This document shows positions 24,219 to 33,979 of a DNA stretch of 34,036 nt, one piece after another. The translations under genes and the position numbers were made by a program. The notes under the pieces are model-generated. The model was given only the letters and a program-made list of their open reading frames with translations. It was not told where the DNA came from and did not search any database. Source of the DNA: Fimbriimonadaceae bacterium (GTDB lineage: Bacteria > Armatimonadota > Fimbriimonadia > Fimbriimonadales > Fimbriimonadaceae). Within the stretch, counting starts at the first letter, position 1, and the number at the start of each line of letters is the position of its first letter. The stretch spans positions 1-34,036 of the forward strand of contig JAHBTC010000018.1 of NCBI GenBank assembly GCA_019638835.1, read 5' to 3'.

Positions 24219-24713
24219 CTAGTTTGGCATGGTATCGGGACTGAACTCCGCACTCCATGGATGAGTGAGGTCAGCCAATCGACACAAAAAGAACCCTAAA
24301 CAGTCGCCGTATTCTTCCGGTGTAAGAGTGTCGCCACCGCTCACCATGAGCGGCCCGACCGGGGCGACAAAGCCCCAATCCAAGAGTTCAAACGCATGAT
24401 CGCGACTGGCTTCCGGGAGGTTACATCGCTCAATTGCGTAGTTGCGGAATGGAATGGTCGTCGGACGTCCGCGCAATACGGGACGGAAGTTGAGGAACAT
24501 CTGTCGCAACTCGGCGACCATTTCACTTCGCGTTGCCGGGCCATCACCGTTTCGCTGCGGCCTAGTCGCAACGGGAAGCTTTAACTTCAGCAGCCGTGCG
24601 GGGCCGATTTGCATCCGCTCGGTTGCCTTCACCATTGAATCAAATCGCAACGGTTCCGCAAAGCCTGCGGAGACGAGCAGAAGAGCGGCGGTCAAAACTG
24701 AGAGAGATCTCAT
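24219..24713 (-). CDS. Secreted small protein with a degenerate S-layer-homology-like domain
   Basis: A 164-aa exported protein: signal peptide MRSLSVLTAALLLVSAGFAE, then a mostly helical region. The C-terminal part, ASRDHAFELLDWGFVAPVGP followed by the GDTLTPEEYGDCLGFFL segment, follows the spacing of an SLH domain (DHWAYEAIEYLAEKG... then a P-x-x-x-TR-A-E segment), and SEMVAELRQMF near residues 63-73 resembles the tail of a preceding SLH unit. Two cysteines are near the end. SLH domains bind cell-wall-linked polymers; here the match is weak. The ATG overlaps the mreB stop (ATGA), so it is translated with mreB, which suggests a cell-envelope role. The 228 bp downstream hold no gene. Confidence 0.6.
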   Translation of the reverse strand: MRSLSVLTAALLLVSAGFAEPLRFDSMVKATERMQIGPARLLKLKLPVATRPQRNGDGPATRSEMVAELRQMFLNFRPVLRGRPTTIPFRNYAIERCNLPEASRDHAFELLDWGFVAPVGPLMVSGGDTLTPEEYGDCLGFFLCRLADLTHPWSAEFSPDTMPN

Positions 24714-25723
24714 ACTGTTGCCACCGAATGGGTTCGCTGGATCGCCTCTAGTTCTTCCAGAGCGCGGCCCGTTCCAATCGCCACACTATGCAAGGCATTC
24801 TCCGCGACATGGACCGGAATTTCAGTCACCTTATTCAGCAACTTATCCAATCCATTCAGCAATGCACCACCACCCGTCAAGACAATGCCTCGTTCAATGA
24901 TATCGCTGGCCAGTTCCGGCGGAGTCTCTTCCAAGATATTACAGACTTTCTCCGCAATTTGCCGTACAGGCTCGCCCAACGCCTCTCGAATCTCGTCGCT
25001 CGTCACATCCACCGTGCGTGGCAACCCCGCGATCAAATCGCGACCCCGAATCGTCATACTGACCTCGGGTTCAAGGGGGAACGCGCTACCGATCCGCTTT
25101 TTGATTTCTTCGGCGGTTTGATCACCAATCAGCAGGTTATGAACTTGCTTTACGTGGCGCATGATCGCTTCATCTAGCTTATTGCCACCTACGCGGAGAC
25201 TCTGCGAAAGCACGATGCCCCCCAAACTGATCACGGCGATATCCGTCGTGCCGCCGCCAATATCAATGATCATGTTGCCACCGGGGGTCGCGATGGGTAA
25301 ACCGCATCCGATTGCTGCCGCCATCGGTTCTTCAATCGTCATCGCCTTACCGAAACCGGCTTCCTTGGCCGCTTTGATGACCGCTCGCTTTTCAACGTTT
25401 GTTACTCCACTTGGCACACAGATAAGAGCCGTCGGGGGAATGAACTGATACTTGCCCAGAAGCTTGAGTCGAATGAACTTGAGCATCTCGCGGGTTACGG
25501 TGTAGTCTGCGATCACACCATCTTTCAAGGGGCGAACAGCCGTGATGTTGCCGGGGGTGCGTCCGAGCATCTCGCGAGCGTCGTTTCCGACCGCAAGTAC
25601 GGTCTTCGTCTTGGTGTCAATCGCGACAACGGTTGGCTCGTTCAATACGATGCCTTTGGTTCGCCGGTAGACGAGGAGATTTGCCGTGCCAAGGTCAATG
25701 GCAAGTTCGGATGCGAGTCTCAA
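24710..25723 (-). CDS. mreB: Rod-shape-determining protein MreB
   Basis: MreB is the bacterial actin that guides lateral cell-wall synthesis under the inner membrane. The 337-aa product has the actin-fold phosphate loops: AIDLGTANLLVYRR at the N-terminus, MIIDIGGGTTDIAVISLGG in the middle, and GIVLTGGGALLNGLDKLL near the end, plus EPMAAAIGCGLPI before the second loop. Length is typical. The start is taken as TTG at 25723; no strong ribosome-binding site is seen, but the codons give the expected few residues before DLGTAN. It is 24 bp downstream of murA and overlaps the SLH-like gene. mreC and mreD, common neighbours, are not in the window. Confidence 0.96.
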   Translation of the reverse strand: MRLASELAIDLGTANLLVYRRTKGIVLNEPTVVAIDTKTKTVLAVGNDAREMLGRTPGNITAVRPLKDGVIADYTVTREMLKFIRLKLLGKYQFIPPTALICVPSGVTNVEKRAVIKAAKEAGFGKAMTIEEPMAAAIGCGLPIATPGGNMIIDIGGGTTDIAVISLGGIVLSQSLRVGGNKLDEAIMRHVKQVHNLLIGDQTAEEIKKRIGSAFPLEPEVSMTIRGRDLIAGLPRTVDVTSDEIREALGEPVRQIAEKVCNILEETPPELASDIIERGIVLTGGGALLNGLDKLLNKVTEIPVHVAENALHSVAIGTGRALEELEAIQRTHSVATV

Positions 25724-25747
25724 GGGAGTGACACGAATTGTGACACG

Positions 25748-27040
25748 CTAACCAACGGGAGCCTCGCCAACTAGCCTTTCGACAGAGGCACCAATCCCAT
25801 TCAGTTTGGCTTCGAGATGCTCGTACCCACGGTCAATATAGTGAACATTGTGGATATGGGTCGTTCCCTTCGCAGCAAGACCCGCAAGCACTAAGCAGGC
25901 CCCGGCTCGTAAATCGCTGGCCTCGACGGTGGCGCCGCTTAGTCTCTCTACTCCGAGGAAGGTTGCCGTCCGACCGCTCGTGGAAACTTCGGCCCCCATG
26001 CGATTGAGTTCGCGCACGTGACCAAAGCGATTTTCGTAAATCGTCTCCTCTATCTGTGATGCTCCTTCAGCCAAGGTCAGGAGTGCCGCAAACGGTTGTT
26101 GCATGTCCGTCGCGAAGCCCGGATAAGGCATCGTTCGCACCTTTACGCCTCTCAGCGGCTTCGGTGCGCTGACCGTTACGAAGTTGTGCCCCTCGATTAC
26201 ATCGGCGCCCATCTCTTGGAGCTTGGTGATCATGGCAGTTTGGTAGGCGGGAAGGATATCGCTACAAGTGACTGAGCCGCCCGTGATGGCGCCTGCGAGT
26301 AAGTAGGTGCCGACTTGAATACGGTCTTCCGGAATGCGATAACTGGCCCCGTTCAGTCGCTCGACGCCCGTGATTGTGAGGCGACTCGTGCCCACGCCTT
26401 CGATGCGCGCACCACATGCCTTCAAAAAGTCGGCGAGTTGAATCACTTCCGGCTCAACGGCCGCATTATCAATTGTTGTGACGCCCGGAACCAGGCATGC
26501 AGTCGCCATCATGTGCTGGGTTGCCCCTGCACTTGGAAAGTCAAAGTGGATTTCGTTGCCGCGAAGTTGACTTCCTTCGGCAACATAGAATCCGTTTGCG
26601 AGTTCAACGTCGGCCCCGAATCGAGATAGCCCTTTCATGTGAAAGTCCACGGGACGGTCACCGATGCTGCAACCGCCGGGCATGGGAAGACGGGCTTTAC
26701 CAAACCGAGTCAGGAGTGGGCCGAGCAGATAAAACGATGTTCGGATCCGACGAACGTGCAGTTCATCGGGCTCGAAGTACCGCAAACCCGTCGTGTCCAA
26801 CGTAACTTCTGATCCATTGCGATCAACGGTGATTCCGAAGTCTTCCAGAAGTTGAAGCTTGATGGCCACATCCGAGATATCGGGCATGTTCGTCAAAGTG
26901 ACGACGCCATCAACCAAAGGCACAGACGCAAGCACAGCGAGGCAAGCATTCTTGCTCCCTCCAACGTTGACTGTTCCTACCAGGGGACGCCCCCCTTCAA
27001 TTCGCAAAACTGACCCGGCTTCCGTCCGATCCATTTCCAT
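25748..27040 (-). CDS. murA: UDP-N-acetylglucosamine 1-carboxyvinyltransferase
   Basis: MurA transfers enolpyruvate from PEP to UDP-GlcNAc, the first committed step of peptidoglycan synthesis. Seen: LRIEGGRPLVGTVNVGGSKNA near the start, here LRIEGGRPLVGT then VNVGGSKNA, with the substrate-binding Lys-Asn; RRIRTSFYLLGPLLTRFG; and the catalytic loop PGGCSIGDRPVD, where the Cys that fosfomycin attacks is present; later PYPGFATDMQQPF and the C-terminal RAGACLVLAGLAA. Three close ATGs (27052, 27040, 27034) are possible; 27040 has GGAAG 5 nt upstream and gives 430 aa. The open frame further upstream to 27196 is unlikely to be coding. It leads a murA-mreB-SLH-like run. Confidence 0.95.
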   Translation of the reverse strand: MEMDRTEAGSVLRIEGGRPLVGTVNVGGSKNACLAVLASVPLVDGVVTLTNMPDISDVAIKLQLLEDFGITVDRNGSEVTLDTTGLRYFEPDELHVRRIRTSFYLLGPLLTRFGKARLPMPGGCSIGDRPVDFHMKGLSRFGADVELANGFYVAEGSQLRGNEIHFDFPSAGATQHMMATACLVPGVTTIDNAAVEPEVIQLADFLKACGARIEGVGTSRLTITGVERLNGASYRIPEDRIQVGTYLLAGAITGGSVTCSDILPAYQTAMITKLQEMGADVIEGHNFVTVSAPKPLRGVKVRTMPYPGFATDMQQPFAALLTLAEGASQIEETIYENRFGHVRELNRMGAEVSTSGRTATFLGVERLSGATVEASDLRAGACLVLAGLAAKGTTHIHNVHYIDRGYEHLEAKLNGIGASVERLVGEAPVG

Positions 27041-27159
27041 CACCGCTTCCATCCTTAGAAGCGAATCAGACTCTACCCGATAGGGCAAAACGCACGATTT
27101 CCTGGCAAGATAACCGGGGTGTTGTGATGAAAATGTTAAGGATGCGCCTTTTTGGTGCT

Positions 27160-27326
27160 CTGAACCGTTAGAATGGATGTGATGCACCGCCCACATCAGG
27201 CTGTCCGTCGGAGGATCAGACCCGCCGCGTGGTCCGACTCATTGAGTTGGCCTGTGCGCCCGTCCCTTCCGAAGGCCCGCCGATGTGACATCGGCGGGCC
27301 TTTGTCTATCAACTAGGAGGTGAATC
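27160..27326 (+). promoter_or_regulatory. Structured leader upstream of the HNH gene
   Basis: Between murA and the HNH gene, the plus strand shows a possible arm pair GTCGGA (27207-27212) / TCCGAC (27233-27238), then a strong hairpin (see separate entry), then AGGAGG and the ATG. TAGAAT at about 27169-27174 could be a -10 box, but no convincing -35 was found. The layout resembles an attenuated leader; no known riboswitch class was recognised. Confidence 0.35.
27274..27307 (+). terminator. Strong GC-rich hairpin before the HNH gene
   Basis: GGCCCGCCGATG (27274-27285) pairs perfectly over 12 bp with CATCGGCGGGCC (27289-27300) across a TGA loop, followed by TTTGTCT. Its end is about 20 bp before the HNH ribosome-binding site, so it can act as an attenuator of that gene or end a short upstream transcript. 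Confidence 0.65.
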
Positions 27327-27848
27327 ATGGCTGAAGTTTTATTGTTGAACGCAAACTTTGAACCGCTCAACGTCTGCAACATGCGGCGTGCGATGAGCCT
27401 CGTGTTGCTTGGCAAGGCGGAAGTGCTTCAAGAGTCAGAGTTGCCAGTGCGAACGAGTCAATGTGACTTGCCTGCGCCATCGGTCGTTCGAATGCGCTAT
27501 CAAGTTCGTCGGCCGATGCCAGAACTCCGCCTTTCGCGTCACTCCATTCTCACCCGTGACCAGTACGAGTGTCAGTACTGCAGTTCAAAGCGCGACTTGA
27601 CGTTAGACCACGTCATTCCTCGTTGGCAAGGGGGAGGCAACACCTGGGAGAACTTGGTTACGTGCTGCCGGAGGTGCAACTTGAAGAAGGGGGACAAGAC
27701 CCCAAATCAGGCGCACATGAAACTGAAGCGCCAGCCTCGGCGGCCCCACTATGTGCCGTACCTCTCTTTGCAGAAGTACGTGCGGGCTCGCCAGAACCAT
27801 GATTGGCACTTCTATCTGCCTACGTTTGACGCGTTCGATATCAATTAA
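27327..27848 (+). CDS. HNH endonuclease family protein
   Basis: A 173-aa protein with a compact HNH nuclease fold. Zinc knuckle cysteines are in CQYC (residues 82-85) and CCRRC (113-117); the catalytic motif is [11 protein letters not shown] (about 93-103), with the HNH Asn in TWENLVTCC and a second basic segment NLKKGDKTP. The N-terminal 70 residues ([20 protein letters not shown]) match the stand-alone HNH proteins common in many bacteria, whose role is not settled. The ribosome-binding site AGGAGG is ideal. There is no neighbouring methyltransferase, integrase or intron reverse transcriptase, so it is not part of an evident restriction or mobile system. Its end overlaps the convergent pterin-synthase-like gene by 4 bp. 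Confidence 0.92.
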
Positions 27849-28666
27849 CGAGGTCGCTCAACCGTAAACGCGCTGCGGGCGGTTTCGTACAGTCTCACTC
27901 TTTCCAGACGTGCGGGCAAGTGCCCTTCGAGTTGATCGTAGATCGCCTGAGCTACCACTTCGCTCGTCGTGCATTTGCCCTGAAGTTCGGGCAAGTCAAG
28001 GTCAAGGTTACGGTGGTCGTAGCGCTCAATGACTCGCTCTTCGATCACCTGATCCAGTTCATCAAGGGGACAGATCATTCCGGTTGTCGCATCTGGCTGT
28101 CCGCTCACCGTGACTTCTAAGACGTAGTTGTGACCGTGACCATGGGGGCGGTTACACTTCCCAAACAGCCTTTCGTTCTCGGCAGCGGAGAGGGTGTGAG
28201 CATGGAGACGGTGGCTCGCGGCAAACTCAAACGTACGGGTGAGGGTCAACATTTCGGGGGTCCATTCGCCGTAAAGAAGCGGCGTTTCGTCAAGGCGCAA
28301 ATGAGTCAGTTCGACTGCGCCGGGTAAGTCACGTAAAGACTCGTAGAAGTACATGAGCAGGTTTTCAAGAGTAGGTGAAACGTTCGTGAATGCTTCGACT
28401 TCATCGTTGATACTCTTCTGGTCAAACCGCTGGACAACGCGCTCCTGCAACGTATCGTCAATCCACTTGATATTGACCACCATCCCATTCTCAGGGTCGG
28501 TGGTACCTCGGGTGCTCACCCAAAGGACGTAGTTGTGACCGTGATTGTACGGTGACGCCCAATTGCCGAATCGCACACGGTTTTCTTGCTCAGAAAGGTC
28601 GGCGTCCCAATACCGATGCCCGGCACTGAACGAAACCTTCCTCGTGAGTGTGACCTCAGACATCAT
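27845..28666 (-). CDS. Two-domain 6-pyruvoyltetrahydropterin synthase / QueD-like protein
   Basis: A 273-aa fusion of two PTPS/QueD domains. Family members convert dihydroneopterin triphosphate to 6-pyruvoyltetrahydropterin or, as QueD, to carboxytetrahydropterin for queuosine. C-terminal domain (about 140-273) is complete: Zn ligands His152, His177 and His179, catalytic Cys171 in [14 protein letters not shown], Asp217-His218 in RYDHRNLD, and Glu261 in LYETARS. N-terminal domain (about 1-135) keeps Zn ligands His17, His42 and His44 and Glu127, but Trp36 replaces the Cys and Gln83 the His, so it looks inactive. The start overlaps the permease stop, tying it to the nucleoside importer operon. 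QueD and PTPS cannot be told apart with certainty here. Confidence 0.9.
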
Positions 28667-29529
28667 CCTTCCTTACGATACGGTAATCCAAGCGCCGCTG
28701 GTACCCGTGTCCCACGCCCCATCACGATAAGTACTGCCAAGGCAGCAACGTACGGCAAGGCGACAAGGAATTGGAAGGGGATTCCGCTTCTGCCTTGCAA
28801 GGCGTATTGCAACAGATCAGTCAGCCCGACAAACACCGACGCCGCGTAGACCCACGCAGGCTTCCACCGCCCAAACGTAACCATCGCGATCGCTACGAAT
28901 CCCTTTCCGCTTGTCATCCCTTCGGCAAACGAGCCTGCAACTCCAATCGAAAGATATGCCCCCGCTACGCCTGCCATCGCCCCGCTTGTCAACGCCGCCT
29001 GCCACCGAAGGCGATTCACTGAAAAACCGCCAGACTCGACCGCCGGAGGATATTCGCCTGCGGCCCTCAAAGCGAGTCCCCACTTCGTTTTCTGTAGCCC
29101 GTATCCGGTCGCAACCACCGCGATCAACCCCAAGACAACAACGAAATCAATCGCACCCATCCATAAGGGAATCGTGGGGAGACGTATCAGTTCTCCGCTT
29201 GCGCCAAATTGTTGTCGGAAGAGTGTGTTCGTTATGCCCAGAGCGAGCAAGTTGATGGCCGTCCCGACCACAACTTGGTCATGACCGCCCCGAATCGTGA
29301 ACGCTGCCTGGAGTGCGGCAAGCAGGAGTCCGACGCAAGCCCCTATGAGCAACCCGGCTCCAATACCACCGGGCCCGAGCGCAACGACCGCCGCCGCATA
29401 AGCCGCCGCGAGCATCATGCCTTCCAGGCCGATGTTGATGACGCCTGCACGTTGCCCAATCGTTTCGCCGAGTGCCGCCCAAACGAGCGGTGTGGCATAC
29501 CGAAAAACTGGGAGGTACGCCTCAATCAT
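28663..29529 (-). CDS. ABC transporter permease, nucleoside/simple-sugar (BPD_transp_2) type
   Basis: A 288-aa inner-membrane permease of the BMP-linked nucleoside importer. The ATG at 29529 is preferred because GGAGGTGCGGA precedes it and it overlaps the upstream permease stop (ATGA); an open extension to 29673 lies inside that gene. About eight to ten hydrophobic helices are seen, starting after MIEAYLPVFRYATPLVWAAL, with the family sequence GVINIGLEGMMLAAAYAA in the second helix region. The long cytoplasmic loop with TKWGLALRAAGEYPPAVES (the coupling segment that meets the ATPase) is present. It pairs with the other permease to make the membrane pore. The end overlaps the PTPS-like gene. 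Confidence 0.93.
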   Translation of the reverse strand: MIEAYLPVFRYATPLVWAALGETIGQRAGVINIGLEGMMLAAAYAAAVVALGPGGIGAGLLIGACVGLLLAALQAAFTIRGGHDQVVVGTAINLLALGITNTLFRQQFGASGELIRLPTIPLWMGAIDFVVVLGLIAVVATGYGLQKTKWGLALRAAGEYPPAVESGGFSVNRLRWQAALTSGAMAGVAGAYLSIGVAGSFAEGMTSGKGFVAIAMVTFGRWKPAWVYAASVFVGLTDLLQYALQGRSGIPFQFLVALPYVAALAVLIVMGRGTRVPAALGLPYRKEG

Positions 29530-30554
29530 TCCGCACCTCCTGCGGGCTTGGACTCGGGGCGAGAGGATTGAAGTTGGAGCCGGCCCAATCCAACAACAAC
29601 CAAAACGGCGACGGCCTGAATCACGAAGACCGCAGATGTGCCAACTGAAGTCTCCCGAGCGAGCGCCTCGCAACCCGCGAAGAGCGCCCCAAAGTAAAGA
29701 GCGGCGACAAGGGTGCCAATCGGGTCAAGCCCACCGAGCAAAGCGACCGGGATTGCGAGGAACCCCCAGTTCTCGGTGAACGAAGCATCAAGTCGCCGCG
29801 CCAGTCCTAAGTAAGAAATCGCCGCCGCAAGGCCACATAAGCCGCCCGACCACAGCATTGCGGTGACTTGCAACCGTCCCACTTTCATGCGCTGGGTGTG
29901 GGCAGCGACCGGGTTCGCCCCCACCCACTTGAGTCGGAAACCGGTAGCCGTGAATCGAAGAAAAACGAACACAACGATCACGGCAAGGAAAGCCAATACG
30001 ATGCCGGTGTGAAAGTCCGTTTGCGGATTCGGACGCAAGAACATCACCGCATCGGGCAACGCGGACGACTGCGGACGCGTGCTGCTCGGATCTCTTAGAG
30101 GACCGGCAACCGCCCACTTCAGCAGAGCGAGAGCGATGAAATTGAGGAGGATCGTACTGATGACGACTTGGACTCCCCTTGTCACCTGCAAAACGGCGGC
30201 GAGGCCGGCATAAAGTGCGCCCCCTGCTACCCCAGAAAGTAGAACCACGAGCGTGATGACCGCCGAAGACTGCCCCTGAAATACCATCGCGGCCCAAGCT
30301 CCACATAGACCGCCGACAACGTATTGCCCCTCGCCGCCGATATTGAACATTCCCGCCCGCCATGCGATGAGGATTCCGAGCCCGGTGAGGAGCAAAGGCG
30401 CGGTTCGGGCCAGCGTCCGGGCGATCGATGCCTCCGATCCCAGGCTTCCCCTTGCAATCGTCGAAAGGCTCTCAAAAACTGGGAGTCCAAAGAGTGCGAG
30501 GGTAACAACTAAAGCAAGGGCCAGCGCACCGGCAGTGACGAGAATGCGGGTCAA
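29526..30554 (-). CDS. ABC transporter permease, nucleoside/simple-sugar (BPD_transp_2) type
   Basis: A 342-aa inner-membrane permease, partner of the one downstream. The first helix is ILVTAGALALALVVTLALF; the family signature appears as AWRAGMFNIGGEGQYVVGGL (about residues 64-83), followed by further helices (AVITLVVLLSGVAGGALYAG, VVISTILLNFIALALL). The coupling segment is GFRLKWVGANPVAAHTQRM. The start is TTG at 30554, overlapping the ATPase stop (TTGA). Paired, non-identical permeases of this type are typical of BmpA-linked importers such as YufP/YufQ or NupB/NupC. Confidence 0.93.
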   Translation of the reverse strand: MTRILVTAGALALALVVTLALFGLPVFESLSTIARGSLGSEASIARTLARTAPLLLTGLGILIAWRAGMFNIGGEGQYVVGGLCGAWAAMVFQGQSSAVITLVVLLSGVAGGALYAGLAAVLQVTRGVQVVISTILLNFIALALLKWAVAGPLRDPSSTRPQSSALPDAVMFLRPNPQTDFHTGIVLAFLAVIVVFVFLRFTATGFRLKWVGANPVAAHTQRMKVGRLQVTAMLWSGGLCGLAAAISYLGLARRLDASFTENWGFLAIPVALLGGLDPIGTLVAALYFGALFAGCEALARETSVGTSAVFVIQAVAVLVVVGLGRLQLQSSRPESKPAGGAE

Positions 30555-31966
30555 GCCGTCGCTCCCACCAACGAATCCCTCAACTCACCCCGGCTCAGAT
30601 AGAGAATTCGATGGGCAAGTGCCGCCAACTCATCGGAATCCGTGCTGATCAATAAGACAGCCGCACCTGCCCGCGCCGCATCCAAGATGCGGCGATGGAC
30701 AAACTCGGTTGCGCGGACGTCCAGCCCCCGAGTGGGATTGACCACAACCAGAAGCCCGGGGCTCTCGGATAACTCTCGACCAACAACTACCTTTTGTTGA
30801 TTGCCACCGCTCAGCGATCGCACTGGGTCGGAGAGATTCCCCACTTTGATCTCGTAATCTTGGACAACCCCTCGCGACCAGTTCCAGAGTCGTTTACGGT
30901 TGAGGACCAATCCTTGACGGCGTTGCACGGGCCCTGACCACAGGTTGTCTTCGACCGATAGCGAAAGCGCTAAGCCCGCGCGCTGGCGATCGGGAGGGAT
31001 GAAGGCCACTCCATTTGGAGTCACAATGTCACCGCCTTTCCGGCTGCGAATCCCGGCCACGGCTTCCGCGAGTTCGGTTTGACCGTTCCCGTCCACTCCG
31101 CCAATACCCAGCACCTCCCCACTTCGAATCTCGAAGGAGATGCCGCGAACGGCGGGTTCTCCCCGGTCGCCGGAAACCACAAGATCCTTCACACGGACGG
31201 CTTTCTCACCGAGAGCCTCTTGTAACGGGCTTTGGGGCGCAGGAACATCGCCCACCATCCACTCTGCGATCTGGGCTGCATTGGCTTCCATTTGAGTCGT
31301 TTGAGCGACCACTCGGCCTCGTCGGAGCACGGTGATTCGATCGGCGACGGCCAGAATTTCACTGAGTTTATGAGCGATGAGGATCACAATCCTCCCTTCC
31401 TCGGCAAGGCGGCGAAGCAGGCCAAGCAGTTCTTCTACTTCGCTCGGCACGAGGACTGCCGTCGGCTCGTCGAAAATGATTACGTCGCTTGGTCCCGCGA
31501 GTGCTTTGAGAATCTCGATCCGTTGTTGCGTCCCCACCGGGAGGTCGTCGGTGCGGTCATCTACGTCAATGCTCCATCCCAAAGACTTGGCGCGTTCCAA
31601 AGCAGAGGCGATCAAATCGGGTTGCGCAAGACGGCCTCGCAAATCTTGAAGTGCGTCCAATGCGAGATTCTCGCCCACCGTAAAGTTCGGTACCAACATG
31701 AAATGCTGGTGGACCATCGCGAATCCGCGCTGGCGCATCTCCGCTGCTTGTCCAAGCGGAAGCGCCTCCCCACGGTACGAAACCGTGCCCTCATCTGGCG
31801 TGAGAAAGCCACCCAACACATTCATCAAAGTGGACTTGCCCGCGCCGTTCTCGCCAAGCACGGCATGAACTTCACCGGGGAGGAACTCGACCGATACCGC
31901 GTTGAGCGCGACGACCGAGCCGAAGGCTTTCGTGACACCTTCGACCCGTAACGTCGCCTCGCTCAT
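30551..31966 (-). CDS. ABC transporter ATPase with two nucleotide-binding domains
   Basis: The 471-aa ATPase of the nucleoside importer, with two fused NBDs. NBD1: Walker A GENGAGKST (about 39-47), Q-loop region MVHQHFMLVPNFTVGENL, signature LPVGTQQR, Walker B IIFDEPTAVL. NBD2: Walker A-like GVDGNGQTEL, signature LSGGNQQK, and a Walker B region that reads VVVNPTRGLDV, with Asn in place of the catalytic Glu. This asymmetry is usual for ribose/nucleoside-type double ATPases such as YufO and RbsA, so NBD2 probably binds but hydrolyses poorly. The gene starts 5 bp after bmpA ends and overlaps the permease start. Confidence 0.95.
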   Translation of the reverse strand: MSEATLRVEGVTKAFGSVVALNAVSVEFLPGEVHAVLGENGAGKSTLMNVLGGFLTPDEGTVSYRGEALPLGQAAEMRQRGFAMVHQHFMLVPNFTVGENLALDALQDLRGRLAQPDLIASALERAKSLGWSIDVDDRTDDLPVGTQQRIEILKALAGPSDVIIFDEPTAVLVPSEVEELLGLLRRLAEEGRIVILIAHKLSEILAVADRITVLRRGRVVAQTTQMEANAAQIAEWMVGDVPAPQSPLQEALGEKAVRVKDLVVSGDRGEPAVRGISFEIRSGEVLGIGGVDGNGQTELAEAVAGIRSRKGGDIVTPNGVAFIPPDRQRAGLALSLSVEDNLWSGPVQRRQGLVLNRKRLWNWSRGVVQDYEIKVGNLSDPVRSLSGGNQQKVVVGRELSESPGLLVVVNPTRGLDVRATEFVHRRILDAARAGAAVLLISTDSDELAALAHRILYLSRGELRDSLVGATA

Positions 31967-31971
31967 GCGCG

Positions 31972-33000
31972 TCAGAACTCGTCCTTAGGTACGGTCAGTT
32001 GACCTTCCAGAATCTTTGTGCGCTCTGCTTCAATCTCTCGAACCAGCGTTTCGGGGATTACCGATCGCATCGCCGGGTTCAAAACAAAGTCAATCGCTCC
32101 GTCCGACATCCCAACTAAGACAACTTCTCCTTTGAAGGTTCCGTCCTTTACTGACTTGGCGATCTTGAGGAACGCGGGCTCAGCGTTGATTGTTGCGCTG
32201 GCGATCACGATTCCCGATTCATTGCTGTTCTGGTTGAGGTTTGCGCCGAAGGCATAGACCTTCTTCTCCTTGCATGCTTCAAAGACGCCTTGGGCAGCAG
32301 CGTTTGCCTGGTGGATCACGAAGTCTGCGCCCTCATTGATTGCGGCCGTGGTCGCTTGCTTCGCGGCCGCGACGTCCGACCCGCTCCCCGTGAACTTCTC
32401 GATCACAACGATATCGGCTCGGGCGGCTTTGGCGCCCGCCACAAACCCTTTGAAAGTGGACCGGATCGAAGGTACGTCATCGCCGCCGATCATAGCCACT
32501 TTGCCCGTCTTGGACATCTTGCCTGCCATGTAGCCCGCAAGATAGAAACCTTGTTCTAAATAGAACCGGAAAGCGCCCACATTCGTGCTTGTGCCGCCCC
32601 CGCTACTCGTGATAAAGATCGTATTGGGGAACGCTTTACCGACCTCAACCGCCGGTTCGTTGTATTCGAAACCGTGCCCAAAGACAAGTTGATAGCCGTC
32701 TTGAGCGTAACTTCGCATCGCGTCGGAGATCTTTGGCCCAGCGGCCTCTTGGTTGCTTACTTTTGCCCCGAGGTCGGTCTCAATCGCTTTGAGCCCAGCA
32801 TAAGCCATCGCGTTCCAACCCGAGTCGCTGACCGGGCCGGGGGTAATGAGGGCTACTTTGAGTTCGCCTTCCATCGGCTTCGGCGGCGAAGCGGTCGTGG
32901 AGGTTGGCCCGTTCGCCTCGGGTGCGCTTGACGCGCCGCCCGTACAACCAAGCAGGGTGAATCCGATCAATCCGAGCGCGAGGCCCCAAGACATCCGCAT
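31972..33000 (-). CDS. BMP-family substrate-binding lipoprotein of the nucleoside importer
   Basis: A Bmp/PnrA-type receptor that captures purine nucleosides or related molecules outside the inner membrane. The ATG at 33000 gives a lipoprotein leader MRMSWGLALGLIGFTLLGC with the lipobox LLGC and lipidated Cys19; a GTG at 33027 would add 9 polar residues. A Ser/Thr/Pro/Ala linker (about 20-45) is followed by the periplasmic fold: VALITPGPVSDSGWNAMAYA, FGHGFEYNEPAVEVG and VAMIGGDDVPSIRSTFKGF, with GADFVIHQANAAAQGVFEAC near residue 240. The aromatic and Asp residues in SDSGWN typical of the nucleoside pocket are present. It leads the operon to the ATPase, two permeases and the PTPS/QueD-like gene. 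Confidence 0.94.
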   Translation of the reverse strand: MRMSWGLALGLIGFTLLGCTGGASSAPEANGPTSTTASPPKPMEGELKVALITPGPVSDSGWNAMAYAGLKAIETDLGAKVSNQEAAGPKISDAMRSYAQDGYQLVFGHGFEYNEPAVEVGKAFPNTIFITSSGGGTSTNVGAFRFYLEQGFYLAGYMAGKMSKTGKVAMIGGDDVPSIRSTFKGFVAGAKAARADIVVIEKFTGSGSDVAAAKQATTAAINEGADFVIHQANAAAQGVFEACKEKKVYAFGANLNQNSNESGIVIASATINAEPAFLKIAKSVKDGTFKGEVVLVGMSDGAIDFVLNPAMRSVIPETLVREIEAERTKILEGQLTVPKDEF

Positions 33001-33035: not shown

Positions 33036-33575
33036 CTACGCAAGCAAATCGCTTTGAATCTGCCGCAATTGGGCAACGCGAAGATGATCCTTTTTTCTTC
33101 TGGGTACCGTGACTGTATTGAGGAGATCGGTCACGTGCACGACATGCACCTCAACTGCGCCAACCGACTTAGTTACCGATCGTCGAATCAAGTCTTCGTA
33201 TTGGCCGGAGATCTCGGGGACAATGTCAAGACTTCCAAGGGTCGTACTAAAGCTCGCGTCGAACGTCAGGGGGTCGTGAGGATCGAACTGCCAGTTCTGA
33301 CAACGCTCTCGCCACTCCTCATTCTCCGGCACAACCATCCACTTCCATTCGCCTTCTTCGTCCCGAAGCCAATGACCGGGCCCGCCCTGATTGACCGCGT
33401 CAAGTCGGGTGAGGAGCGAAGCGAGGCGTGTAAGGTTCTCGGGCGAGGTATCAGGGATGATATCAAGATCGTTCGGGTCCGTTTCGACTCCGTGAAGCAT
33501 CATCGCCGTTGAGCCACCAACGACATATCTGATTTGCGCTTTGTCGAATGCGGCAACGATTTGGGTCCAAGCCAT
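33036..33575 (-). CDS. Nucleotidyltransferase-fold protein
   Basis: A 179-aa soluble protein of the minimal nucleotidyltransferase superfamily. The core is VVGGSTAMMLHG (residues 18-29) followed by DPNDLDII (33-40) with the paired acids Asp36 and Asp38, and a third acid is likely in GSLDIVPE. Such proteins transfer nucleotides to protein, RNA or small molecules and often act in toxin-antitoxin or abortive-infection pairs (AbiEii, MNT types). The C-terminal region (VHVTDLLNTVTVPRRKKDHL) contains basic residues like those of AbiEii-like proteins. The ATG is 3 bp after the stop of a small unknown gene, implying a two-gene unit. There is no HEPN gene nearby. Confidence 0.75.
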   Translation of the reverse strand: MAWTQIVAAFDKAQIRYVVGGSTAMMLHGVETDPNDLDIIPDTSPENLTRLASLLTRLDAVNQGGPGHWLRDEEGEWKWMVVPENEEWRERCQNWQFDPHDPLTFDASFSTTLGSLDIVPEISGQYEDLIRRSVTKSVGAVEVHVVHVTDLLNTVTVPRRKKDHLRVAQLRQIQSDLLA

Positions 33576-33578
33576 AGG

Positions 33579-33887
33579 CTAACTGACCGGCGTCACACTG
33601 ACCGATGCGCCGAGCCGAAGGGCCGCGTCTTGGACTAACGCTTCGATCCGTGGGAAGGCGTTCGCCTGCTCGCTGATCCACGGCATCTGAAGAACATGAC
33701 TGACCTGATCTGGGTGCGGGCCATTCATGTCGCCGAACTCGCAATCCACGGAAACGACAAACTCATCGCTGCGGGCGGCCAATTCTTCGACCAAGGCGGC
33801 GATGTCCCGTCCGGCCTCATCCCAGGAGTTGGCTCCGCTCACCCCGACATACATGTTTCCGAATTGGTCAGTCGCCTCCCAGATCAT
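33579..33887 (-). CDS. Small unknown protein paired with the nucleotidyltransferase
   Basis: A 102-aa soluble protein from the ATG at 33887 (an in-frame GTG at 33917 would add 10 residues; neither has a good ribosome-binding site). The N-terminus MIWEATDQFGNMYVGVSGAN and SWDEAGRDIAALVEELAARS suggest a small alpha/beta fold, strand-strand-helix; the rest includes two short strands (FVVSVDCEF) and a helix (AFPRIEALVQDAALRLG). No helix-turn-helix or catalytic motif. It precedes the nucleotidyltransferase by 3 bp, with a strong terminator upstream, so the two form their own unit. No family is recognised; an antitoxin or accessory role would be a guess from position. Confidence 0.6.
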   Translation of the reverse strand: MIWEATDQFGNMYVGVSGANSWDEAGRDIAALVEELAARSDEFVVSVDCEFGDMNGPHPDQVSHVLQMPWISEQANAFPRIEALVQDAALRLGASVSVTPVS

Positions 33888-33919
33888 GGTTCTATTCTGG
33901 CACTGGATGCTTATCACTA

Positions 33920-33951
33920 AAAAGAAAAGCCCCTGGCCGAAGCCAGGGGCT
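33920..33951 (-). terminator. Intrinsic terminator of the gene at the right edge
   Basis: AGCCCCTGGC (33928-33937) pairs with GCCAGGGGCT (33942-33951) around CGAA. Read on the minus strand it is followed by TTTTCTTTTT, an excellent U-tract, and lies about 30 bp after the stop at 33980. It separates the Gly-rich gene from the small unknown gene. Confidence 0.85.
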
Positions 33952-33979
33952 CATCCACCCAACGAGGAGGGGGTCGAAC

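Follow-up and report, generated by a model that had tools for sequence, protein, structure and literature searches.

The stretch analyzed here (the window: 34,036 nucleotides, positions 1 to 34,036 of the forward strand of contig JAHBTC010000018.1, assembly GCA_019638835.1 of a Fimbriimonadaceae bacterium) carries on its minus strand, at 27845-33000, the genes of a BMP lipoprotein, an ABC ATPase, two permeases and a 6-pyruvoyl-tetrahydropterin synthase (PTPS) in one row. We propose, tentatively and at slightly less than an even chance, that these five genes are a pterin cofactor supply unit, composed of a tandem PTPS of the biopterin type and of an importer that would not be for nucleosides and would likely carry a pterin. 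What the sequence establishes is the row, its conservation, the states of the motif and active sites, the presence of the pathway genes and an altered receptor pocket. The features of the row are as follows.

31972..33000, minus strand: BMP-family receptor lipoprotein (P0002); Pfam Bmp, 172.7 bits (gathering score 24.1)
30551..31966, minus strand: ABC transporter ATPase with two nucleotide-binding halves; Pfam ABC_tran, 130.1 bits, two stretches
29526..30554, minus strand: permease 1, TTG start within the ATPase stop; Pfam BPD_transp_2, 104.7 bits
28663..29529, minus strand: permease 2; Pfam BPD_transp_2, 99.5 bits
27845..28666, minus strand: tandem PTPS (P0001, 273 aa); Pfam PTPS, 189.7 bits, two PF01242 domains
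28253..28666, minus strand: PTPS domain 1, degenerate; Trp36 for Cys and Gln83 for His, Zn histidines 17/42/44 and Glu127 retained
27848..28252, minus strand: PTPS domain 2, complete active site; Cys171, Asp217, His218, Glu261 and Zn His152/177/179, motif CNRPHGHGH

The first-pass annotation had described the five genes as joined by overlaps or a 5-bp gap, and direct reading of the junctions bears this out. The lipoprotein stop (31972) is separated by 5 bp from the ATPase ATG (31966), and the three other junctions are 4-bp overlaps, TTGA between ATPase and permease 1 (30551-30554) and ATGA both between the permeases (29526-29529) and between permease 2 and PTPS (28663-28666). The five genes may thereby be co-translated as one unit. 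The receptor most likely starts at ATG 33000, which yields the lipobox LLGC; the mechanical open reading frame (ORF) begins at GTG 33027, and the residue numbering of P0002 counts from this alternative start.

In the scheme that we favour, FolE2 of the window genome would make dihydroneopterin triphosphate and PTPS domain 2 would convert it to 6-pyruvoyl-tetrahydropterin, while domain 1, conserved but non-catalytic, would complete the tunnel-fold ring beside it. A reductase would then finish the product, which would serve the biopterin-dependent phenylalanine hydroxylase, and the BMP-type ABC importer would take up or recapture a pterin such as biopterin, dihydrobiopterin or sepiapterin, so that the genes to make one cofactor and those to salvage it would be expressed together.

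For the comparisons, 113 genomes were searched, 101 of them with a match, and from these the analyst chose 40 loci of the order, 27 from family f1, 5 from f2, 7 from f3 and 1 from f4. The window locus belongs to f1, and its genome (labelled G000, with the window as its contig C90; assembly of 2.74 Mb, 97.8% complete) is one of those considered below. Pathway genes were profiled across 20 genomes, with 14 control genomes for the hydroxylase and the dehydratase. Beyond the order we used the best 80 of at least 586 named loci, 65 of which fall outside the Fimbriimonadaceae-like group (L170-L183, L246). The DNA is GC-rich, and frame shadows account for many ORFs of the neighbour tables; the neighbour counts were therefore taken from tblastn.

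The tandem PTPS and the queuosine alternative

The last gene of the row had been called PTPS/QueD-like. The first half of that name stands and the second does not, the protein being a tandem of two PF01242 domains, which had been missed, with a motif of the biopterin type. In the accessible text of PMC5041015, CxxxxxHGH is given for PTPS-II (tetrahydrobiopterin synthesis) and CxxxHGH for QueD; domain 2 carries CNRPHGHGH, which fits the former and not the latter. Active sites were counted in 106 proteins, P0001 and 105 others, after 15 of the 120 PTPS loci were set aside for an ORF shorter than 230 aa. Taking the three histidines to be Zn-binding, Cys, Asp and His to be catalytic and Glu to anchor the pterin, we found the full catalytic triad in domain 2 of 33/33 proteins from f1 and f2 (P0001 and 32 relatives), while domain 1 has lost both the catalytic Cys and His in all 33, with the Glu and all three zinc histidines retained in every protein. 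By these residues domain 1 is degenerate yet not decayed. Among the loci listed, the 73 other tandem proteins (including the 15 Fimbriimonadaceae-like loci, some from genomes already counted) have the full triad in domain 2 of 56 and in domain 1 of 8. Two adjacent ORFs take the place of a single tandem PTPS gene in L201, L203, L220, L224, L229, L236, L244 and L249 (Acidobacteria records apart from L224), a split that would let both halves be tested apart.

Structure and phylogeny point in the same direction. The nearest solved proteins by sequence are animal PTPSs (1b66, which we take to be rat PTPS, E 2.3e-32; 3i2b, 8.6e-31), with QueD 4ntm at 6.7e-9. In the predicted model of P0001 (pLDDT 95.1, pTM 0.90), domain 2 is nearest by fold to animal PTPS as well (human 3i2b and 1gtq, Z 19.3, 133 residues aligned at 1.2-1.3 A), QueD giving Z 15.2. 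A domain tree of 60 rows, from which L218 and L238 are absent because the motif splitter passed them over, separates the tandem domains together with 1b66 from 11 single-domain PTPSs of the order (support 100/99). All 24 first domains fall in one group (100/95), with the long branches L193_D1 and L066_D1 as a caveat; no such group unites the 24 second domains. Domain 1 therefore looks like one old branch common to the sampled Armatimonadota, Bacillota, Chloroflexota, Poribacteria and Planctomycetota. The whole tandem model overlays one chain of each of two bimodular tunnel-fold enzymes, urate oxidase (Z 12.8, 223 aligned, 4.1 A) and GTP cyclohydrolase IB (Z 11.4, 200 aligned, 4.4 A); these differ from it in that identity over the chains is 6-10% and the active site of the tandem is of PTPS type. 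The model suggests that domain 1 may be the structural, non-catalytic half of the ring. The enzyme is very probably of the tetrahydrobiopterin type, and 6-pyruvoyl-tetrahydropterin synthase would be its predicted activity.

A different role for the row had been put forward at the start, with PTPS acting as QueD in queuosine synthesis and the importer bringing in a deazapurine or guanosine-like precursor. There is something in its favour. The tandem PTPS is a member of COG0720/PF01242, as QueD (PTPS-I) is, and P0001 passes the QueD model TIGR03367 (109.5 versus 89.25 bits, summed over the two domains); besides, four genomes with QueC (G035, G001, G008 and G002) have no second PTPS match, and there the tandem protein may serve as QueD as well. 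Against this, the tandem differs from QueD in motif and phyletic pattern and has no queC nearby. The first-pass annotation had proposed looking for queC and queE near the row and in the genome: both queC and a radical SAM gene that is queE-like exist in the window genome, together on contig C143 (the QueC model passed, the QueE models matched below their cut-offs), tgt is on contig C132, and two single-domain PTPSs carry the QueD motif CxxxHGH (G000:C155:6650-7039 and G000:C24:1603-2049), although both stay below the TIGR03367 cut-off (77.7 and 70.9 bits). These two are of different types, and one of the C24 type adjoins queC in G048. In 17/17 genomes with a full QueC match, QueC is on a different contig from the tandem PTPS or a long way off, and a single-domain PTPS accompanies QueC in 13 of these 17 (weakly in G007, 30 bits) versus 0 of the 3 others (Fisher p 0.03, uncorrected for kinship). 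The tandem is retained in G108, G098 and G095, where the QueC matches are partial and close to the cut-off and no single-domain PTPS is matched. The receptor also lacks the ribose contacts (see below). On motif, queC location, paralogues and phyletic pattern we have rejected a QueD or queuosine role for the operon, which genome context largely refutes and which we consider very improbable.

Conservation of the linkage and pathway genes in relatives

The first-pass annotation had named a coupling confined to this strain as a result that would speak against its idea. Our comparison indicates otherwise, and strain-specific coupling was rejected. Permease 2 lies within 200 bp upstream of PTPS in 24/27 f1 loci and 3/5 f2 loci, that is, in 27 of 32, and in none of the 8 loci of f3 (0/7) and f4 (0/1). 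All four transporter genes are within 6 kb of PTPS in 21/27 f1 and 3/5 f2 loci. The exceptions in f1 are L042 and L050, with no importer nearby, L054, where it is some 4 kb off, L044 and L053, with no receptor nearby (in G015 the receptor is about 16 kb away), and L052, which ends at a contig edge; in f2, the importer is not nearby in L060 and L064. The other common neighbour is MurA, found within 6 kb of PTPS in 12/27 f1 loci. Among the 27 linked loci of f1 and f2 it is present within that distance in 10 and absent in 17, and because of these 17 the link between importer and PTPS is not a matter of local synteny alone; shared synteny as its sole cause was rejected. Four other loci, L184 and L188 from Planctomycetota and also L218 and L223, the latter two with folE, likewise have related ATPase and permease genes adjoining tandem PTPS. 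The BMP profile detected no receptor gene on these four stretches, that of L218 beginning inside the ATPase gene.

The pterin link that had been raised for the row is backed by the genes around tandem PTPS in relatives and by the distribution of the hydroxylase. folE is directly downstream of tandem PTPS in 5 of the 40 order loci (4/5 in f2, 1/1 in f4), and a short-chain dehydrogenase/reductase (SDR) gene is downstream in 20/40 when the best tblastn match is taken, or 18/40 by the stricter distance rule, in which an overlap of up to 30 bp is allowed. The complete order BMP-ATPase-permease-permease-PTPS-FolE-SDR is found in L061 and L062, from genomes G007 and G001 (permease 2 of L061 by tblastn). 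The four FolE matches over the cut-off in the 20 genomes all come directly after tandem PTPS; a fifth, in G109, is weak, below the cut-off and located elsewhere. FolE2 is present in 15/20 genomes, that of the window included, and one or other enzyme (FolE over the cut-off or FolE2) in 19/20. A biopterin-dependent aromatic hydroxylase is encoded in 20/20 genomes versus 1/14 controls, and pterin-4a-carbinolamine dehydratase in 19/20 versus 7/14. In G111 the hydroxylase gene adjoins the tandem PTPS. The hydroxylase of the window genome passes the phenylalanine 4-monooxygenase model NF008877 (296.8 versus 247 bits) and is below the cut-off of TIGR01267 (200.3 versus 264.75 bits).

Outside the Fimbriimonadaceae-like group, among the best 80 of at least 586 loci, FolE or FolE2 is within 900 bp in 49/65 loci, an SDR within 2.5 kb in 34/65, and both in 31/65. 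The clustering of tandem PTPS with folE and an SDR, possibly a sepiapterin reductase, is a feature of relatives and not of the window itself. Two examples of the neighbour SDRs score 148-156 bits with adh_short, and their best 25 NCBIfam models are all below cut-off. Compared with the PTPS-II pathway of tetrahydrobiopterin (FolE, PTPS and sepiapterin reductase; COG0720 subfamily, as far as the accessible text of PMC5041015 describes it), our system shares the motif, the triad of domain 2, the hydroxylase in the genome and, in relatives, folE and SDR next to tandem PTPS; it differs in the tandem form with a degenerate first domain, in the ABC importer genes overlapping the PTPS gene and, for the window genome, in the use of FolE2 and the lack of an adjoining SDR. 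The PTPS-FolE-SDR cluster is probably the known pathway in tandem form, and what would be new is the coupled, probably non-nucleoside BMP importer.

Some Bacilli loci have further neighbours. In L189, L194, L197, L198, L202 and L205 (e.g., L197:7260-11391) the tandem PTPS adjoins a protein of about 850 aa with HAMP, GGDEF and EAL domains (Pfam), and an SDR is present in 5/6 of them. This is possibly a pterin-linked cyclic-di-GMP system; similar pterin control of cyclic-di-GMP exists in Agrobacterium. In L190, L196, L200 and L216 the order folE-PTPS-SDR is followed by a HATPase_c_2 gene and an alpha/beta hydrolase (Pfam on L200), and then, by eye, by genes for a membrane protein and a PP2C-like protein, with a STAS-like gene in L200. 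By eye and Pfam this resembles an Rsb-like signalling row.

The receptor pocket and the ligand of the importer

The predicted model of the receptor (pLDDT 86.8) is typical of its family. The top 14 rows of the fold search are BMP-family chains (Z 29-36) and the next row drops to 21.1. The nearest solved structures are Lbp (guanosine), AtzT (guanine), BmpD, PnrA and RfuA (riboflavin), with Z 32-36, the overall-fold comparison with RfuA giving 31.9. Fold alone does not name the ligand of the receptor. Operon and canonical types of receptor and permease were assigned by the analyst from score and place. Two BMP receptor types are found in 11 of the 20 genomes, one in 7 and none in 2. The canonical type (235-277 bits to PF02608) occurs in 16/20 genomes, from all four families, and the operon type (144-181 bits) in 13/20, from f1 and f2 only. 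A single permease set serving both receptors was considered and rejected, given that operon-type permease 2 occurs in the same 13 genomes as the operon receptor (13/13) and the canonical permease in the same 16 as the canonical receptor (16/16). In G000 no permease adjoins the canonical receptor, and a second permease pair is present in the genome.

We have mapped the pocket by alignment to BmpA (PMC13325309) and AtzT (PMC6834077), using the residues given in the accessible text of both papers; once a single offset in numbering was applied to each, the 7 landmarks of BmpA and the 9 of AtzT all matched the published letters. In BmpA, ribose is bound by Asp98, Asp225 and Lys242 and there is an aromatic sandwich of Phe27 and Phe176, while the guanine pocket of AtzT has a Tyr45/Trp194 sandwich with Glu165, Ser97 and Asn220. 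The 39 operon receptor rows came down to 28 distinct ones after removal of 11 that duplicated a gene, and of 16 canonical loci one failed the length or match filter, leaving 15. The three ribose-binding positions are Ser, Asn and Ile in 28/28 operon receptors, Phe27 is replaced by Trp in 28/28, and Phe176 by a non-aromatic residue (Gly, Asn, Asp, Pro or Glu) in 28/28; besides, Gln240 (28/28) and Asn242 (27/28), in P0002 numbering, stand in for Ala and Gly. In 15/15 canonical paralogues the ribose-binding Asp, Asp and Lys are intact, as is Phe27, and position 176 is aromatic (Trp). The operon receptor is thus like PnrA, BmpA and BmpD in fold, family and in the receptor-ATPase-permease-permease organization of the transporter (PF02608; PMC7093131 and PMC13325309, as far as their accessible text goes), and unlike them in lacking the ribose-binding Asp, Asp and Lys and the second aromatic, in its Trp for Phe27 and in the new Gln and Asn.

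The importer is, by these residues, very probably not an ordinary nucleoside importer. An ordinary nucleoside salvage unit to which a promiscuous PTPS has hitch-hiked would agree with BMP membership and fold; set against the three ribose-binding residues changed in all operon receptors and kept in all canonical paralogues, the conserved active site of the tandem PTPS and its pathway neighbours in relatives, it is highly unlikely. The import of a guanosine-like precursor, suggested by the first-pass annotation, is weakened by the same loss of ribose contacts, and also by the presence in the genome of a canonical receptor and a second permease pair.

A biopterin-type PTPS could also stand beside an importer of a non-ribosylated purine, such as a guanine-like base, that feeds the GTP pool as pathway precursor. 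Guanine-binding AtzT is the closest solved relative of the receptor by sequence (E 2.7e-35), its Asn220 equivalent is retained in 27/28 receptors, AtzT likewise lacks an equivalent of Lys242, and loss of the ribose contacts suits a base as well as a pterin. However, this Asn and one aromatic (Trp for Tyr45) are all that is retained of the published AtzT pocket, with Glu165 replaced by Ser, Ser97 by Gly and Trp194 by Gly, Asn, Asp, Pro or Glu; G000 already has a nucleoside-type receptor and the second permease pair, and a supply of purine would not need to be coupled to PTPS, the second enzyme in a minor cofactor pathway. We regard a purine base as an unlikely cargo.

It is less improbable, though still doubtful, that the importer carries something that is not a pterin (vitamin B6, riboflavin or another nutrient) and that PTPS was joined to it by shared regulation or by an old accident of gene order. 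The best NCBIfam matches of all four importer proteins are the putative B6 ABC transporter models NF047927-30, at scores far below the cut-offs (114.8/400, 364.3/670, 159.8/400 and 166.8/465 bits), BMP proteins bind diverse ligands, riboflavin in RfuA included, and the genomes of f3 and f4 run the pathway with no linked importer. On the other side stand the 17 linked loci with no MurA neighbour and the four loci beyond the order in which related ATPase and permease genes adjoin tandem PTPS, albeit with no BMP gene in the stretches.

A pterin as cargo is our best guess, tentative and somewhat short of even, being the simplest join of both halves of the row. Several observations weigh against the favoured scheme as a whole. 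To the TIGR03367 scores of P0001 and of the two single-domain PTPSs, and to the four QueC genomes with no second PTPS match, must be added that the AtzT contacts to guanine (Glu165, Ser97 and Trp194) are lost, which would leave Asn242 and Gln240 to recognize a 2-amino-4-oxo ring. The window genome has no SDR after PTPS, and its best SDR-profile match (142 bits) is FabG-like and adjoins a gene that is FabF-like by eye, clear SDR orthologues scoring 260 (G050, beside PTPS) and 287 (G035, elsewhere in the genome). G072 has neither a FolE nor a FolE2 match, implying either a third cyclohydrolase or pterin import; this genome is rated 100% complete and has the importer, tandem PTPS, QueC and the hydroxylase. 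Finally, the importer is dispensable, G060 and G002 having PTPS and hydroxylase and no BMP match, a situation that fits salvage or recapture better than obligatory supply of a precursor.

Borders of the row and implications

Two further features delimit the row, which would be bounded as follows.

33927..33952, minus strand: strong terminator-like hairpin, 11-pair stem and T-run, consensus match
27327..27848, plus strand: convergent HNH endonuclease gene; Pfam HNH_5, 56.1 bits, 4-bp overlap with the PTPS end

The HNH gene is the downstream border and lies outside the system; HNH, MurA-like and MreB genes (window 24710-27848) are frequent neighbours downstream of PTPS. The hairpin is 5' of two small minus-strand genes that precede the receptor (33036-33575 and 33579-33917) and is the probable upstream border, judged from its predicted stem. 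The first of these small genes has a weak, sub-cut-off Pfam match to an adenylyltransferase family, neither was matched in the loci of 40 relatives (tblastn, E 1e-5), and they are possibly a toxin-antitoxin-like pair. A Rfam scan of the window gave no family at gathering scores, and a promoter scan gave 2 matches versus 1.9 in shuffles, i.e., no excess.

A literature search, from which subscription journals were mostly outside, returned no description of a pterin-linked BMP or ABC importer or substrate-binding protein, and nothing on Armatimonadetes with tetrahydrobiopterin, on B6 with BMP or on tandem tunneling-fold 6-pyruvoyl enzymes; the biopterin transporter literature that it did list concerns trypanosomatids and malaria parasites. 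What we may have here, a possibility that we hold with some reserve, is an ABC importer for tetrahydrobiopterin-type cofactors, with a pterin receptor, co-translated with a bimodular PTPS in which one half is an old pseudo-enzyme, and serving both to make and to recapture the cofactor of phenylalanine hydroxylase.

Should the receptor bind a pterin, it would represent a dedicated bacterial ABC route for such cofactors, and the marker set Trp71, Ser142, Gln240, Asn242, Asn263 and Ile280 (P0002 numbering) would find others. Besides, since tandem PTPS passes the standard QueD model, biopterin synthesis may be under-annotated, and this may touch the Fimbriimonadaceae-like bacteria and also the tandem-PTPS records of Poribacteria, Bacilli, Chloroflexota, Acidobacteria and Planctomycetota.

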